From: Terriglobia bacterium | Lineage (GTDB): Bacteria > Acidobacteriota > Terriglobia > Terriglobales > Acidobacteriaceae | Direction of reading: 5' to 3' | DNA length: 64,000 nucleotides | Assembly: GCA_020073665.1 (NCBI GenBank) | Contig: JAIQEU010000003.1 | Location: 248,001-312,000 of the forward strand | Shown: piece by piece, positions 22,174 to 57,707 of the stretch | Position numbering within the stretch: position 1 is the stretch's first letter | How the letters are laid out: the number at the start of each line of letters is the position of its first letter | Position numbers and translations under genes: made by a program | Notes under the pieces: generated by a model | Databases searched by the model: none | What the model was told of the DNA's origin: nothing | Seen by the model: the letters and a program-made list of their open reading frames with translations, nothing else

Positions 22174-23175
22174 GTGGAGCACAACAAACAACCCGGGGCG
22201 GGCAGGGTTCCGCCAGCGAGCGAGCCGGACGCCGAACTGGCACAGAACCCGGCCGTAGATGAGTTTTTTACCCGCCTGAAATACGACATGCGCCACCCCA
22301 AGCCCGGCCAGGAAGCAATTGGGGCCGCCCTTGAGGCCATTCACCGCCTAGCTCAGGAAATGGATGCGGAAGATTCTGCGGACGTGACCGACTACGGCAA
22401 CGGAACCCGGCCGCGTACCTGCATGGCATGTGGCGCAGCTAATCCTGAGATAAACAGGTTTTGCGCCACCTGCGGGGTCCCGTTGCACCAAGTTTCCTCC
22501 GGGCAAATGGAGACTCCGGCGGAGATGCCTCCGACCCAAAAGTCGCCAAGCCCCGCTGGCCAGCACCACTATCATCATCACTACCATCACCACTATTTTT
22601 CGCAGCCGGGAGCCGGTGCCGAGGTCGGGGCTGAGAGCGGAGGAGCCAGCCATAGCGCAGTTGTCCGAGACGGCAGCAAGGTTCGCGCGACCCTGAACGC
22701 CCCTTCGTCAAGCCGGGCGGAAGCCGCCGTCCGCAAATTGACCCAGGAATGGGCCCTGGCCTGCAACAGCAAGCAGCTCGACGACGTGGTATCGCTTTAT
22801 GCGGCCGATGCGGTGCTGCTGCGCTCCAATCTTCTCCCCGTGCGGGGTACCGCAGCCATCCGGGAATACTTCTTTTCGGCCATTGATGCGGGTTTTGGTG
22901 AGGTCGAGATGGAACCGCTGCGGCTGGAGTTGTTCGGCGATGTTGCCTACGAGGTGGGCCGTTGCAAGATGCTGGTCCCGGTCGCCATGGGAAAGCGGCG
23001 CGAAGAGCGCGGCAAGTACCTGATCATTTCGGTTCGCCAGCAGGGAGAATGGAAACTGGTTGCGGACTGCTGGTCCAGCGACCTGAGCCTGGCGGCTACC
23101 CCCGAAGTCAGCCTGTCCCGGCCGGCGCCGAGTGGGGCTGGCCCGGCGCCGCGCCTGCCCCGAAAAGGCGTCTAG
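22174..23175 (+). CDS. Zinc-ribbon / His-rich / SnoaL-like (NTF2-fold) protein
   Basis: 333 residues with three parts. A zinc ribbon spans residues 83-100 ('CMACGAANPEINRFCATCG', four Cys in CxxC pairs). A metal-binding-looking tract at 131-140 has eight His in ten residues ('HHYHHHYHHH'). A C-terminal SnoaL/DUF4440-like domain (about 185-305) includes 'KLTQEWALACNSKQLDDVVS', 'YAADAVLLRSN' and 'GTAAIREYFFSAI', the usual NTF2-like fold of ketosteroid-isomerase relatives. No signal peptide or membrane segment is seen. The combination suggests a cytoplasmic metal-responsive or scaffold protein; enzymatic activity is not established. GTG start at 22174 without a clear ribosome site. Confidence 0.75.
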   Translation: MEHNKQPGAGRVPPASEPDAELAQNPAVDEFFTRLKYDMRHPKPGQEAIGAALEAIHRLAQEMDAEDSADVTDYGNGTRPRTCMACGAANPEINRFCATCGVPLHQVSSGQMETPAEMPPTQKSPSPAGQHHYHHHYHHHYFSQPGAGAEVGAESGGASHSAVVRDGSKVRATLNAPSSSRAEAAVRKLTQEWALACNSKQLDDVVSLYAADAVLLRSNLLPVRGTAAIREYFFSAIDAGFGEVEMEPLRLELFGDVAYEVGRCKMLVPVAMGKRREERGKYLIISVRQQGEWKLVADCWSSDLSLAATPEVSLSRPAPSGAGPAPRLPRKGV

Positions 23176-23187
23176 TCCGCAGCCCGG

Positions 23188-23799
23188 TCAGCTGCTCACT
23201 CCCAGTTTCTCCAGCTCCCCTCGCAGTTGCGCCACATTCTCCTTGCGGATGACCTGCATGCCCAGTCGCTGCGCCGCCTCCAGGTTCAGCGGGCGATCAT
23301 CAATGAAACAGCACTGTTCGGGCGGTTGCTGCGTGATTTGGAGCGCCAGCCGGTATATGCCTTCTTCGGGTTTGCGCAAGCCCACAAAACATGAACTCAC
23401 GAACAGGGAGAACAGTGCGCGCAATCCGAAGCTCTCGATGCGATACAGATTCAGTTCCGTCGATTCATTGTTGATGGTTGCCATCAGGTATTTTCCCGAC
23501 TTGGCCAGCGCCCGCGCCAGGTCCAGGGCCTCCCGATCCGGCTGCGACAAGGAGAACAAGAAGTCGCGGAATGCTTTCCGGGTGAAAGCCCGGGGCCGGT
23601 AGAAGACGGTCCGGTCAAGATACTCGTCGAGGCTGATCTTGCCCCGTTCAAAGGACGAGGCCAGCATGTCGTGACGGTCATCAAATTCGACTTCGTCCAA
23701 ATTGAAATTCTGGAGTGCATGCAAACGCTGCGCCCGGTCCCAGGCATTACTGAGAAGCACACCGCCCACATCAAAAAAAAGTGCGCTGATCTTAGGCAA
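23188..23799 (-). CDS. HAD-superfamily hydrolase (YihX-like)
   Basis: 203 residues of the haloacid-dehalogenase superfamily, probably a phosphatase. Motif I is 'ALFFDVGGVLLSN', with the nucleophile Asp but Gly at the usual second Asp position, as in several YihX-like relatives. Motif II is near 'LMATINNES', motif III Lys is in 'GLRKPEEGIYRLAL', and motif IV is 'CCFIDDRPLNLEAAQRLG'. The TTG start has a strong GGAGG six bases upstream. It converges with the zinc-ribbon gene, 12 bases between stops. The substrate is unknown. Confidence 0.85.
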   Translation of the reverse strand: MPKISALFFDVGGVLLSNAWDRAQRLHALQNFNLDEVEFDDRHDMLASSFERGKISLDEYLDRTVFYRPRAFTRKAFRDFLFSLSQPDREALDLARALAKSGKYLMATINNESTELNLYRIESFGLRALFSLFVSSCFVGLRKPEEGIYRLALQITQQPPEQCCFIDDRPLNLEAAQRLGMQVIRKENVAQLRGELEKLGVSS

Positions 23800-23868: not shown

Positions 23869-25101
23869 CTAATGACGGTACACGCTGGTGTCAGGATGGT
23901 AGTTGCGCCAATCGAACCAGTAATCCTTTAAAGCCGTGAGCCGTTGCAGGCACTTTCCAGTTGCCGGACCTGCCACGGCGCAGCCTTGGAAATTCCATTC
24001 GCTGGCGGACGCGGCATCAATCAGCATCCAATCGCTGGTCCCGCTCTTACGGAAGAACTGCACATCTGCGCCATCGATGCGGCTCAGGAAAGCGCGCACC
24101 GATTTTCCGTCTGGCCCCATCGCCAGCAGGACCGGCGCCGGGCCAAGCCGGTCCTGGGTGGGAGCCTGCGCGGACAGCGCCGCCAGCGGATAGGCTCGGC
24201 TTTGTCCCCCCGCTTCAATCCCGATCACGACATCGCGCGATTCGAGCCCACTGCCGGGAAAGTCGATGACCGTCGGCAACTTCTGCACTTCGGGCTCCCA
24301 GTTGTCTTCGTATTTTTTCTCGTAGGCAGGAACGGGTGCTAACACCTGTCCCGCGGGAGACTCCTGTTTCCACAATCCAAACGTCAATTCGTCGCTGGAG
24401 ACGGGCTCGAGGGTCTGGCCCTTCAACGGCCCGGAGATGGCTTTCCCGCTGACCTGTTGCCACCAGGTTCCGGTTTCTTCGTCGCGCATCAGGAAGTTCT
24501 GATTATTGATGCCCGCCAGGCGGAAGCGCAGGGTCCGCCCGCTCACCGTTCGTTTCCACACCAGACCGGTGTGACAGAGCGTTCAATAGGTGACCGCGAT
24601 CGGCACTCCGGCAACCACGTCGTTGACCACGTGGTGATACGCCATGGCCCGGATGGGATAAGCGCGGGCGTCGGTGCCGAAGCGGACCGCCATCACCATC
24701 TGCGCCGCGTCCAGCTTGGCCTGTTCGGCCGAGGTGAATCCGGGGGCGGCCACAGGATGGAACATCCACTCGAAGTAATCCACCCGCGACATGGCAGCGG
24801 ATGCCGAGACGAGAACCATCCCCAGGACCAGCAACGCTTTTTTCCAGTTGGAGATCCGCCGCCATAGCAGCAGGGTCAGCACAAGACACAAGCCGGCAAT
24901 AACCACGGTCCACAGGGGCGCCTGCTGCCCCACGGCCATCGCCAGCGTCAACGCCCTCGGCGACTGGTAGCTGAACGGGCGGATGACAACCGCGGGAATA
25001 AAGAAGAAACCTAGCCCGGTCAGCACCAGTACTGCGAACACCAATCCCGGGAGGAGGTTGCTCCGGCCGTTGTGCGGGCGCGCTGGGATAGTCGGATTCA
25101 T
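23869..25101 (-). CDS. DUF3179 membrane protein with in-frame TGA (candidate selenoprotein, Sec173)
   Basis: Read through one TGA (24585-24583), the frame encodes 410 residues. Three transmembrane helices lie at about 16-40, 63-80 and 88-104. A DUF3179 domain follows: 'DARAYPIRAMAYHHVVNDVV', then 'GVPIAVTY-U-TLCHTGLVW', then 'LRFRLAGINNQNFLMRDEET' and 'ESRDVVIGIEAGGQSRAYPL'. Family members have a CxxC at this place, so TGA replaces the first Cys and would give a UxxC redox motif. Both sides of the TGA stay in the same frame and both match the family. A GC-rich hairpin with loop GGTCT begins nine bases after the TGA. The ATG at 25101 has AGGA four bases upstream. Alternatives are a nonsense mutation or sequencing error. 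The function of DUF3179 proteins is unknown. Confidence 0.75.
24557..24573 (-). promoter_or_regulatory. SECIS-like hairpin just after the TGA codon
   Basis: On the minus strand the stem CACACC / GGTGTG is perfect, and the 5-base loop is GGTCT. Nine bases separate TGA and stem; 15 separate TGA and the loop GG. Bacterial SECIS elements sit directly downstream of the Sec codon with one or two G at the start of the loop, and the E. coli fdhF loop contains the same GGUCU. Binding by SelB is inference. Confidence 0.6.
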
Positions 25102-25177: not shown

Positions 25178-25216
25178 AAAAAAAAGCCCCGACCCTGCGC
25201 AACGCAGGATCGGGGC
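25178..25216 (-). terminator. Rho-independent terminator of the minor-pilin operon
   Basis: A 14-base-pair GC-rich stem (25186-25216, one G-T pair, short loop) followed on the minus strand by eight T (A-run 25178-25185). It lies 15 bases after the stop of the PilX-like gene and separates the pilin operon from the DUF3179 gene. Confidence 0.9.
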
Positions 25217-25230
25217 GGCTGTCCTCGGGT

Positions 25231-27906
25231 TTAGTACGGAGTGAAGTCCTGACGGTAGCTCACGTTATCTACGTCGCGGAACATCGGTGTTCCTGGCGGC
25301 AGGTTGTCCGGGTTCAGGAACAGTAGGTCAAACGAATAGTCACGCGTCGGGGGCGAGTAGACCGTGGTGCAGCACTTGAATACTCCCGTGGCGTACTGGG
25401 AGTAATAGAGGCTGACCAGCGAGCCCTGGTAGTGCAGCGGGGCGCCCCAGGCTTCCACGTAGCGCAGGAAGTTGTGCAGACCGCCATCGGTCCCGTAGTC
25501 TTGGGCTCCCCAAGTCGGTTTTGGAAAGTTGAGGTTCTTGCCCGCGGCAATGGCCATCCGGTAGTAAGTCTCGGTGCCGGGGCGGTTGCCGGGGGTACTG
25601 GGGTTCTGGAAGCTGTTGATGTCGCCGTTGGGAACCCTCGAGGCGTAGTTATTCGACAGCAGCGTGACCGCGTCGGCGATGATCGCAGCCGCGGAGTGAG
25701 GATCGTTGTAGCCATGTTCACTGGTCTTGGCGTTGTAGTCACCCAGCACATACACCGGGTTTTCGGAAGCCACGGTGAACCCGCCCTTAGTCGGGTCGGA
25801 TGGCCGTTGCGGCAGGTTGCCGCGGGTGCCATCGACCAGGCGCAACACATGGCGCGCGCCGGTGACCCGGTTCTTGCGCGCCGTGGTCAGGCAAGCCACC
25901 CGGTTGTTGATGAACGGATCCGGTCGGGTTGCACTGGCAGGCGCCGCAGTGGTGTCCTTGCCGAACCCATCGCCCAAATTGACTTCTCCGAAGTAGTTCG
26001 GGAATGCGTTGCCGACACCCGCGACGTTTTCCGCAGCTTCTTCCTGGCCGTCAGGCAGACCGTTGGTCACGCCAGAGTTCACGACGTCTTCGATTCCGGA
26101 CCGACCGGTCTTAATCAGCGGCGCGGTGCTCGGATCAAGCATCATGCCGCGGCGGTCAGAGTAGTACAGCACGTAGCCGTTCTGCTTGGTCCAGTCCGTC
26201 TTGGAGCCGTTTCCGCCGTAGGTCCCGTACAACCATTGCTGCAGGTTGCGGACGTCCAGTTCGACCACGTTCATGACGCCATTCAGCGCGCAGGTGGCGC
26301 TGGTGATGTCCCGGACTTCGCCCTCGCGGGGATCGTACATGTTGATCGGCTGCCAGTTGTATTGCGAGTTGGCTCCAGTGACCGTCGGCGCTCCGCCAGG
26401 TATTCCGTCCACCGCTGCGTCAGCATTGGTCAGAAGGCCATCGGCATTGCGATCGGCCAGTTGCTGGAAGATGAGAATGGCTCGCGGATGCGCGCTATTG
26501 GGCACGCCAGCAGCGCTGTTCGGGGGCTGCAGCCCACGTGCAAAGCCCAGCTGCAACCATTCCGCAGTTACGGGCAGCCAAGTGCCGTCGGCTCGCTTGA
26601 TGTCCACCCGCAGCCAGCCGTCTACTTGCGGCCACTCGTTCACCGCAGCAGGGAATAGGTGGGCGCCGTCGCGTGCATAGATGTATCGGGGCTTGAGATA
26701 GGTGCCGGCGCTTTCACTCGCGACTTTGGCCTCGCCGAAGTAGCTAAGTCCAGCCGTGCCAGCGACCGCGATTCCCGCTTGCGCCGAGCCGGCCAGGCCA
26801 GCCGCTGCGGGGCGCAGGCCCTGCAGGGCAGCCGGTTCCAGGCTGGCGAGCTGGATATCGTTGGCGTCCACCGGGGTTCCATCGGGATGGTTCTCAGCCG
26901 GATCATCGCTTAGCTGGACTCGAATCTGCGCTTGGTTATAGAGTCGGGAAGCGCCGATGCTTGATCCCTGCAACTCGTTGGGAGGCGGCCGGCGAATAAT
27001 CTGGACTGGGCCTGCTCCACCACCTACAAATGGCAGGGACAGCGGCGTGGCGCCGGTCCGGCCATTGATGATGTAGCTGTTGTAGGTGCTCATGGAGATG
27101 GTGCTCCAGTTGGGGTTGTTGGCGCTGGTCGGCCCACCTACCTTGCTGCCCTCGCTCTGGGCCAGGTTACGGCACTTAGGCTTCGATCCGTCACAACCGG
27201 CAGCCTGCTGGGGAATGTAAACCGCTCCCGTGTAGTTGGTGCTGGTGCTGTAGCCGTTGGCCAGTTCCGCCCGGATTACTTCTTGCACTGCGGAAATCTT
27301 GTCATGCAGGGTCAACGAGCCGCCGTCCGCCAGGAACAGGTTCCCGTTGGTGTGCACGCGTCCGGCGAAATCGAAAGCCGGGCCGGGGAAGTAGCTCAGA
27401 TCACCGTCGGAAAACACACCGAACTGGAACACCGGGATGAGCGCGACTTCGACGGTGCGCACCATGCGCACCTCATCGCCCAGGGGCCGCTGTGCGGTCA
27501 CCGTAAGCGTCATGGGAACAATTTCCGCCACCAGCCCCGCGTTCTGCCCAGAGTGGATCGTGTCCACCGCACTCTTGTAGCTTCCGTCCGGGTTGGTGGG
27601 CACGTTGATCACGTATTCCGGGTAAGCGACCCCCGGAATGGTCGGCGGAAAGCCCTGCAGCGCTGCAATGGCGGCCGGGGTCGGCGCCTGTTGCGAGGAG
27701 AACAGGTTCGCCAGGTCGGCCGTCATCTTCTCCATGCCGCCTTCGGCCGCATGGAAGGCGAGACCGTTTTCCAGATCGCTGCCACCCACTCGGCTCTCGG
27801 TGTTGACCATGTACATCAGGCTTAACGCGAATGCCGAAAGCAAGAACAGCAGCAGCAGTGATGCGATCAGGGTGAAACCGCGTGAACGAAGCTGATTAGC
27901 GCCCAT
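25231..27906 (-). CDS. pilX: Very long PilX-like minor pilin / pilus-associated protein
   Basis: 891 residues. The N-terminus is a prepilin-like start ('MGANQLRSRGFTLIASLLLL') and matches the PilX N-terminal pattern with 'MYMVNTESRVGGSDLENGLA' and 'FHAAEGGMEKM'. The remaining 800 residues are far longer than ordinary PilX (about 170) and contain Asn/Gly/Pro-rich segments such as 'FPGPAFDFAGRVHTNGNLFL' and 'GLQPPNSAAGVPNSAHPRAI'. They are probably an extracellular domain presented at the pilus tip. ATG 27906 has GAGGAG nine bases upstream. It is the last gene of the operon fimT/gspH-pilV-pilW-pilX; no pilY1 follows. The large domain may take over the adhesin role of PilY1 (inference). Confidence 0.75.
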   Translation of the reverse strand: MGANQLRSRGFTLIASLLLLFLLSAFALSLMYMVNTESRVGGSDLENGLAFHAAEGGMEKMTADLANLFSSQQAPTPAAIAALQGFPPTIPGVAYPEYVINVPTNPDGSYKSAVDTIHSGQNAGLVAEIVPMTLTVTAQRPLGDEVRMVRTVEVALIPVFQFGVFSDGDLSYFPGPAFDFAGRVHTNGNLFLADGGSLTLHDKISAVQEVIRAELANGYSTSTNYTGAVYIPQQAAGCDGSKPKCRNLAQSEGSKVGGPTSANNPNWSTISMSTYNSYIINGRTGATPLSLPFVGGGAGPVQIIRRPPPNELQGSSIGASRLYNQAQIRVQLSDDPAENHPDGTPVDANDIQLASLEPAALQGLRPAAAGLAGSAQAGIAVAGTAGLSYFGEAKVASESAGTYLKPRYIYARDGAHLFPAAVNEWPQVDGWLRVDIKRADGTWLPVTAEWLQLGFARGLQPPNSAAGVPNSAHPRAILIFQQLADRNADGLLTNADAAVDGIPGGAPTVTGANSQYNWQPINMYDPREGEVRDITSATCALNGVMNVVELDVRNLQQWLYGTYGGNGSKTDWTKQNGYVLYYSDRRGMMLDPSTAPLIKTGRSGIEDVVNSGVTNGLPDGQEEAAENVAGVGNAFPNYFGEVNLGDGFGKDTTAAPASATRPDPFINNRVACLTTARKNRVTGARHVLRLVDGTRGNLPQRPSDPTKGGFTVASENPVYVLGDYNAKTSEHGYNDPHSAAAIIADAVTLLSNNYASRVPNGDINSFQNPSTPGNRPGTETYYRMAIAAGKNLNFPKPTWGAQDYGTDGGLHNFLRYVEAWGAPLHYQGSLVSLYYSQYATGVFKCCTTVYSPPTRDYSFDLLFLNPDNLPPGTPMFRDVDNVSYRQDFTPY

Positions 27907-27938
27907 AATGCTAGTCTCCTCAGATCTTTCCCCAAAGC

Positions 27939-29075
27939 TCATTGGTATCGGTCGCGGAAGCTCATATTGCGTACGCTGACCGAAGTCGCCAGGTCGATGC
28001 CCTGGAACCCCACTTTGCCGTGCATCGAACTGCGGGTCGTCATGCTGACGATGTTGACCTTGCGTATCTGGTTAGGGGACTTTCCTATCGACATCCCCGC
28101 GTCCGCCAGGTTGGAAGTGTCGGCGCCGAGGGTGTCATCGAAGATGTCATAGCTGAACTGCAAATCGCCAATGTTGTCCGCCACCGGTACTGCGGTCTGG
28201 CCGTTGACCTGGCGCATGAGTCGCGGCGGCAGATCGTCGGCGGTGTAGCGGAGGCCGTCCGGCCCGGGCGGAACATCCAGGTAATAGGTGATCGCCAGGA
28301 TCCGGATGGCAGTGGGTGCGACCGCGGGCGGAGGCGGAACCGCACCGCAAGGGTTGCAGATTGTTTTCAAGTTGCCGCCGGGCGCCGTGCTCTGGTTGAT
28401 GTTCAGCCGATCCAGGTCAGCGAAGTTGATCACGTTTCCGACGATTCCCGTCACTTCCCCGACGGCGGGCAGTCCGTTGTTGGTCACCAGGATCAGATCA
28501 CCCACCTTGATCCCCACCGCCGGGTCCTGCAAGGTCGGAATGGGAGGATTCGGCATGGGACTGGGCGGCGCCACCGTGATCGAGGTGCCGTTCGCGCCAA
28601 ACGCCGTGATGGTGTAGCCCAGGGTGAGCGGCGACGAGGGGTCGGTGTACACGATGGTGATGATGTCGGTATTGGCGCCACCGAGCTTCATCGGTATGCC
28701 CAAGCCGTCGCCCGGAATCACCCCGTACAGCTGATTGTTGGGATAGGCGACGCCGGCGGGGTTAACCCCGGAGACGTAGCATTTCACCTGGTCACAGCCG
28801 TAGATGGGGGCCCGCACGGTGCCGGTGGGCAATGCCACTCCACCCGTGGGCAGTCCGGCGCCTGCCAGACTGATGTCTTTAGCAAGCAGGCCTACCGCTG
28901 CCCGTCCGTTCTGCTGCATCTCGGCCCGCTGGCTCACCAGGAAGGTCAACTCCATGCCTTTGCTGAACAATTGCACCGCTGAACCGATGACAATGATGCC
29001 CAGCGTCAGCGCGATCATCATTTCCAGCAATGTGAAACCGCTAGCCCGAATTGCATGTTTGCGACGCATATTCAC
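27939..29075 (-). CDS. pilW: PilW-like minor pilin
   Basis: 378 residues with a type III prepilin leader and methylated helix: 'MRRKHAIRASGFTLLEMMIA', cleavage predicted before Phe. The hydrophobic stretch runs on with 'LTLGIIVIGSAVQLFSKGM', and the 'LVSQRAEMQQNGRAAVGLLA' segment is typical of PilW. The globular part contains Gly/Pro-rich loops and 'VPPGPDGLRYTADDLPPRLM', a calcium-loop-like segment also present in the neighbouring PilV-like protein. The start is GTG 29075, or ATG 29069 two codons later. The gene begins nine bases after the pilV stop. It acts with other minor pilins in priming pilus assembly. Confidence 0.82.
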   Translation of the reverse strand: MNMRRKHAIRASGFTLLEMMIALTLGIIVIGSAVQLFSKGMELTFLVSQRAEMQQNGRAAVGLLAKDISLAGAGLPTGGVALPTGTVRAPIYGCDQVKCYVSGVNPAGVAYPNNQLYGVIPGDGLGIPMKLGGANTDIITIVYTDPSSPLTLGYTITAFGANGTSITVAPPSPMPNPPIPTLQDPAVGIKVGDLILVTNNGLPAVGEVTGIVGNVINFADLDRLNINQSTAPGGNLKTICNPCGAVPPPPAVAPTAIRILAITYYLDVPPGPDGLRYTADDLPPRLMRQVNGQTAVPVADNIGDLQFSYDIFDDTLGADTSNLADAGMSIGKSPNQIRKVNIVSMTTRSSMHGKVGFQGIDLATSVSVRNMSFRDRYQ

Positions 29076-57622: not shown

Positions 57623-57707
57623 TGGTGCGAAAGGGGGGACTCGAACCCCCATGGGTTTCCCCGCCAGATCCTAAGTCTGGTGCGTCTGCCAATTCCGCCA
57701 CTTTCGC
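57623..57707 (-). tRNA. tRNA-Leu(UAG)
   Basis: Read on the minus strand the 7-base acceptor stem GCGAAAG pairs with CTTTCGC, the anticodon loop CTTAGGA gives anticodon TAG (57673-57671), a long variable arm is present, the T-loop GGTTCGAGTCC is standard and CCA is encoded at the 3' end. The long variable arm and anticodon identify leucine, reading CUA. Confidence 0.97.

Follow-up and report, generated by a model that had tools for sequence, protein, structure and literature searches.

The window, a stretch of 64,000 nucleotides from a Terriglobia bacterium, contains on its minus strand a frame of 410 codons with only one internal stop, a TGA at codon 173 (Table 1). An AGGA ribosome-binding-like sequence stands immediately 5' of the ATG. 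The read-through product matches DUF3179 (PF11376) over residues 117-405 (1.2e-65), and its score of 222.3 bits exceeds the curated cut-off of 27. The TGA lies in the residue context VTY-U-TLC, and residue 173 is directly followed by TLCHTG. The original prediction of one TGA in an otherwise open frame is therefore borne out, as is the UxxC context, but its description of CxxC as the family motif is not supported in that wording, since the second Cys varies. Ordinary annotation would label this gene truncated or split. NCBIfam offers no family for the protein of the window, nor for any of 52 DUF3179 members.

Table 1. Positions of the DUF3179 gene and associated features in the window
Feature	Position	Strand	Remarks
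Probable selenoprotein gene (DUF3179)	23869-25101	minus	410 codons; ATG at 25101, end at 23869
In-frame TGA, probable Sec codon 173	24583-24585	minus	frame reading and codons of homologues
SECIS-like hairpin CACACC-GGTCT-GGTGTG	24557-24573	minus	loop begins 15 nt past the TGA
Codon of invariant His156	24634-24636	minus	52-protein alignment
Codon of Cys176, usual but variable partner of residue 173	24574-24576	minus	alignment
Three predicted helices (residues 12-39, 48-80, 85-104)	24790-25068	minus	AlphaFold2 (AF2) model
First Rieske-type fold repeat (residues 117-258)	24328-24753	minus	models; carries His156, residue 173 and Cys176
Second Rieske-type fold repeat (residues 286-410)	23872-24246	minus	no counterparts of residue 173 and His156
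Terminator-like hairpin with T-run	25186-25216	minus	between upstream pilin-type gene and DUF3179 gene

Type IV pilus minor pilin-like genes are located upstream (25231-29075, minus strand), by eye a 903-aa PilX-like and a 378-aa PilW-like one. Two terminator-like sites were found in the whole window, compared with 1.4 expected from shuffles. Downstream follows a HAD-type hydrolase gene (23188-23799, minus strand; by eye), and positions 22174-23175 of the plus strand encode, again by eye, a protein with a SnoaL-like end and a CxxC stretch resembling a zinc ribbon. We compared 87 stretches around DUF3179 genes, many of them shortened by contig ends. The 903-aa pilin-type gene recurred nearby and upstream in 22 of them, relatives of the hydrolase gene in 14, and relatives of the plus-strand sequence likewise in 14, and the gene neighbourhood in these 87 stretches gave no functional hint. 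At gathering scores, Rfam found nothing in the window except a tRNA; the sole tRNA gene is a tRNA-Leu (TAG) at 57623-57707 on the minus strand.

Codon 173 was then read in homologous loci. A first set of 104, taken at one place per locus, consisted of the window gene, the 30 loci listed with the best hits of a search through 396 genomes of the phylum, and those 73 of 79 further loci whose match covers residue 173. To these, 19 loci were added by choice (10 with Cys and 9 with TGA), and removal of five repeats left 118 distinct loci. The codon is TGA in 87 and Cys in 29 (TGC in 23, TGT in 6). The other two (L116 and L126) have no xLCHTG-like motif on the matching strand, and codon 173 is therefore unreadable there. 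Hence TGA or Cys stands at 116 of the 118 distinct loci, as expected if the original prediction is right. Because the sampling favours high-scoring, similar genes, the share of TGA should not be taken for a population rate. A quick tree of 52 proteins requires at least four changes between Sec and Cys, three of them forced by starred branches, compared to a mean of 16 changes for shuffled labels. One Cys clade is nested within the Sec subfamily to which the window protein belongs.

The source genome (5.42 Mb, 62 contigs) encodes the complete set of selA, selB, selC and selD that the original prediction had called for: SelA (9.4e-131), a full-length SelB of 664 aa, a tRNA-Sec with anticodon TCA, and a selD gene (L019:1414-2607) that itself has an in-frame TGA, in AAGUASKL, followed by a hairpin with GGT in its loop. 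A formate dehydrogenase-like gene (L183:1465-3378; 656.2 bits, just below the curated cut-off of 666.25) also contains an in-frame TGA, in NRTUHAPSV. We take both contexts to be known Sec motifs. Like the DUF3179 gene, the formate dehydrogenase-like gene has a possible GGTCT-loop hairpin after its TGA, the best simple hairpin being CGTCGTC-GGTCT-GGCGACG with a 7-bp stem. But the two proteins are unrelated, the loop starts 18 nt after the TGA instead of 15, and the lowest-energy fold of the 60 nt from the TGA differs from this hairpin.

Across genomes, SelA was found at E below 1e-40 in 43 of 46 TGA-type genomes among the matches listed (counted by hand). Two of the others have no SelA (G317 and G046) and one a weak match (G080, 3.5e-10); SelB exceeds its cut-off in G046, not in G317 and G080. 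In ten genomes of the same family that carry the Cys form, SelA never falls below 1e-40: six are without a match and four have weak ones (5.9e-5 to 9.1e-5). G210 and G352, which belong to the same family and also match DUF3179, are not part of this count. SelB did not exceed its cut-off in any of the ten either, whereas all four TGA controls were positive. Since SelA exceeds its cut-off in 270 of the 396 phylum genomes, weak matches included, the association with SelA alone is mild.

We subsequently analyzed the hairpin after the TGA, using a simple hairpin search and comparison with published SECIS rules. The predicted 6-bp stem with GGTCT loop is present, beginning 9 nt 3' of the TGA, and a U-G pair lengthens it to 7 bp. 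The original prediction had treated its occurrence in one sequence as decisive, and this could not be upheld. The fold energy of the 44 nt from the TGA is unremarkable (z -0.38; 60 of 200 shuffles are as good). Moreover, when synonymous codons for the same peptide were drawn at random, with weights pooled from homologues, 19% of 20000 draws formed a 6-bp hairpin here, and in 2.3% its loop was GGTCT. The hairpin in this single sequence is thus weak evidence.

It is more than chance because it is conserved across homologues. As anticipated, it is kept after TGA and decayed where Cys replaces it: within the subfamily of the window protein, all six stem pairs are formed in 71 of 77 distinct TGA loci, compared to one of ten Cys loci. 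The six exceptions bear other hairpins. In L068, L088 and L128 the stem is shifted by several bases (CGGGTC-TGGTCTG-GACCCG, by eye) with GGTCT still in the loop, and in L106, L144 and L145 it is 9 bp long and closes other loops. Such alternatives point to an element that can be rebuilt. A hairpin of another kind, with CGTGT or AGTTT as its loop, is common to nine distant TGA loci. Here 63 of 63 cells are paired, with compensatory swaps (G-C/A-T, G-C/T-A, C-G/G-C), and a stem of this type occurs in none of the 19 distant Cys loci. One more distant locus (L129), which has a hairpin of its own, was excluded from the pairing count. The loop glycine is encoded by GGT in 76 of 80 TGA loci (duplicates included), compared to one of ten Cys loci of the subfamily, the others using GGG (seven) and GGA (two). 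The nested Cys clade, with decayed hairpin and in genomes without strong selA or selB matches, represents a natural control for the role of this element. As a side observation, post-TGA stems of 9-10 bp with other loops were noted in L102, L106, L144 and L145.

Measured against a bacterial SECIS model as in PMC13188914, the window hairpin has a GGTCT loop, a stem of 6-7 bp and a minimum free energy of -8.7 kcal/mol alone (-11.3 kcal/mol for 44 nt), below the threshold of -7.5 kcal/mol. This value is reached by 89 of 90 TGA loci and three of 31 Cys loci, duplicates kept. The rule of a G in the loop discriminates little, since 21 of the 31 Cys loci satisfy it as well. In one respect, the hairpin falls outside the model: the available description gives 16-37 nt between UGA and loop for most elements, with some outside the model (PMC13188914), and the distance here is 15 nt, one below this range. 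The same spacing of 15 nt is found in 73 of the 90 TGA loci.

Taken together, we are highly confident that the TGA at codon 173 is to be read as a Sec codon, and infer that Sec is actually inserted there. The SelB/tRNA-Sec system would decode it, guided by the downstream hairpin. Among the other explanations of the TGA, one is that it truly ends a shortened membrane protein, or that low-level readthrough inserts another residue there, the hairpin being a stalling or readthrough signal. Structures 3' of stop codons can promote readthrough. But the sole readable alternative to TGA is Cys, in 29 of 29 loci; the Cys forms coincide, within the same family, with the lack of strong SelA and of SelB; and two further genes of the genome, for SelD and the formate dehydrogenase-like protein, have TGA in presumed Sec motifs. 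The selA and selB frames are free of TGA, which speaks against a recoded genome. We therefore consider a true stop or readthrough very unlikely.

More improbable still is that the UTLCH stretch represents a CxxCH site for c-type heme attachment in which another residue has taken the place of the first Cys. This idea has a precedent in an Idiomarina DUF3179 protein, which Table 4 of PMC9230427 lists among the CXXCH proteins and counts as heme-binding from the motif search alone. However, of the 52 aligned proteins only 30 have His at residue 177, while 21 of the remaining 22 have Gly, Asn or Tyr there, position 176 is Cys in 43 and something else in nine, and Sec at the first position leaves a single attachment Cys. 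That the gene is merely broken at codon 173, by nonsense mutation, decay to a pseudogene or sequencing error, would explain the one TGA interrupting the frame but not why many assemblies, with 87 of 118 distinct loci, have TGA at the same codon, nor the open remainder of the frame and the retained hairpin, and is extremely unlikely.

Reading codon 173 as Sec agrees with the place of DUF3179 among known families. Tables in PMC9312934 and PMC13188914 contain DUF3179 as a selenoprotein family of the type UxxC/T, the latter citing Zhang and Gladyshev 2007 (NAR 35:4952) as source; a count in PMC1794560 already gives four selenoproteins of three families for the Acidobacteria. That DUF3179 proteins are labelled by some pipelines as possible selenoproteins, as the original prediction had stated, is borne out: besides these two tables, the label 'DUF3179 domain-containing (seleno)protein' occurs in five of 20 plasmid records listed, which are known here by name alone and, as far as their names tell, all come from haloarchaea. 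Distant homologues turned up in 27 plasmid records, and according to the tool none of them covers 80% of the query. The window protein shares with the tabulated family the Sec position and the PF11376 match; it differs in that its subfamily is marked by UTLCHTG and three N-terminal helices and comes here mostly from Acidobacteriota, a phylum common in soil. The literature passages found to mention DUF3179 or PF11376 give neither fold nor function. The selenoprotein family is thus already known, and the new part is the predicted fold, a tandem of Rieske-type domains, together with a proposed His-Sec site.

The AF2 model of the protein (pLDDT 94.9, pTM 0.90) consists of N-terminal helices and a beta domain. 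By their sequence, the three helices are membrane-like and probably span the membrane, and positive residues between them suggest that the beta domain lies outside the cytoplasm. The two halves of this domain align with one another as repeats (hhalign probability 99.8, E 1.9e-30), and in a comparison of the model with the PDB, Rieske proteins match both halves; in the match list of the whole protein, the first and the 35th entry match the helices alone. Folded alone, repeat 1 has a pLDDT of 96.1. All 50 entries listed for it are of Rieske or NirD type by title (Rieske ferredoxins, Rieske-type oxygenases, other Rieske proteins and NirD-type subunits, many near-identical), with Z from 7.3 to 9.7, where values under 8 may, according to the tool's own warning, reflect a common arrangement. 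This ranking covers Foldseek's own candidates alone, so that other folds are possible. Neither for the whole protein nor for repeat 1 was any Foldseek E under 0.001, the best for repeat 1 being 0.031. At the sequence level, the profile of repeat 2 matched 24 Rieske domains of related genomes (score 39.3, E 1.3e-6, probability 90.6; best of 100 column shuffles 15.6). Repeat 1 gave no signal against the Rieske domains (15.5; best of 100 shuffles 20.5), and a sequence search of solved structures with profile A1 gave no match at E up to 1. The Rieske link therefore rests on repeat 2, the internal repeat and the models. Our literature search returned no passage that connects DUF3179 with this fold.

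Each DUF3179 repeat has its fold in common with Rieske ferredoxins and domains (e.g., PDB 2qpz, 2de5, 5bok, 5cxm); 2qpz and the domain-1 model superimpose with Z 9.7 and an rmsd of 2.9 over 92 residues. Unlike Rieske proteins, DUF3179 keeps none of the four cluster ligands of the C-x-H and C-x-x-H boxes: at the aligned places, no Cys or His is conserved, and the invariant Asp207 of repeat 1 stands at about the place of the box-2 Cys. It also differs in having two repeats per chain and, in the aligned register, Sec in the turn before box 1. NirD, the small subunit of nitrite reductase (2jo6, 3c0d, 4aiv), has a Rieske-type fold as well, and 2jo6 aligns to the domain-1 model with Z 8.5 and an rmsd of 3.3 over 98 residues. 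The NirD of E. coli is likewise not known to have the cluster ligands. Unlike DUF3179, NirD is a single soluble domain and is not known to contain Sec. In the models, the fold of the DUF3179 protein thus looks derived from that of Rieske proteins, but the protein itself is not one of them.

A different assignment, in which Sec would correspond to the box-2 Cys in a Rieske site, was suggested by the spacing H156-x16-C173-x2-C176, which equals the Rieske H-x16-C-x2-H. It was rejected, since Sec falls into the turn that precedes box 1 when repeat 1 is mapped via repeat 2 onto Rieske domains, and in this register a D-x-x-T-x-S-x-W stretch occupies the box-2 place. Direct alignment of repeat 1 with the Rieske domains gave the same register, but was not significant (probability 0.7).

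Six columns are invariant in the 52 aligned proteins (H156, C/U173, G197, D207, W214 and G224). H156 and C/U173 are the only Cys or His columns among them; in the register aligned to Rieske domains these two and the frequent C176 all precede box 1. At residue 176, Cys is encoded by 81 of the 87 distinct loci with TGA at codon 173 and by 26 of the 29 with Cys there. In the AF2 model, strands 158-163 and 166-173 pair as a hairpin, so that by register residue 156 should oppose residue 173. His156 should therefore, going by the model, face Sec or Cys at this position. The predicted product would be anchored in the membrane and combine three N-terminal helices with a tandem of Rieske-type beta folds that probably lies in the periplasm; His156 would activate the selenolate of Sec173, and Cys176 or an outside thiol would resolve it. 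Such selenol redox chemistry at the cell envelope is the likeliest function, with, judging from sequence and model, about even odds of being right. We would likewise give about even chances to the full picture of a duplicated, cluster-free Rieske-type domain that carries a His-Sec or His-Cys pair on its beta3-beta4 hairpin and acts as a periplasmic selenol-redox enzyme. The tandem fold without ligands and the invariant His beside Sec would define a concrete, testable active site. If true, this would be a selenoenzyme on the scaffold of an iron-sulphur protein, widespread in soil Acidobacteriota.

A competitor to this mechanism, which leaves the Sec reading unaffected, is that Sec173 and His156 form a metal-binding site and not a catalytic selenol. 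Together with a third Cys that is frequent, the invariant His and the invariant Cys or Sec could serve as ligands of a soft metal, and the Rieske-type fold is a metal-protein scaffold. But nine of 116 distinct loci have Thr, Ala or Val at this third position, and we know of no case in which such a poor site favours Sec as a structural ligand of a metal. We therefore regard metal binding as unlikely, although it deserves more weight than any of the alternatives to Sec itself. Apart from the residues around codon 173, a pair of Cys codons was noted in repeat 2, at codons 374 (23980-23982) and 384 (23950-23952). It is present in 17 of 26 proteins of the subfamily and in none of the 26 others, and may represent a disulphide or a redox partner.
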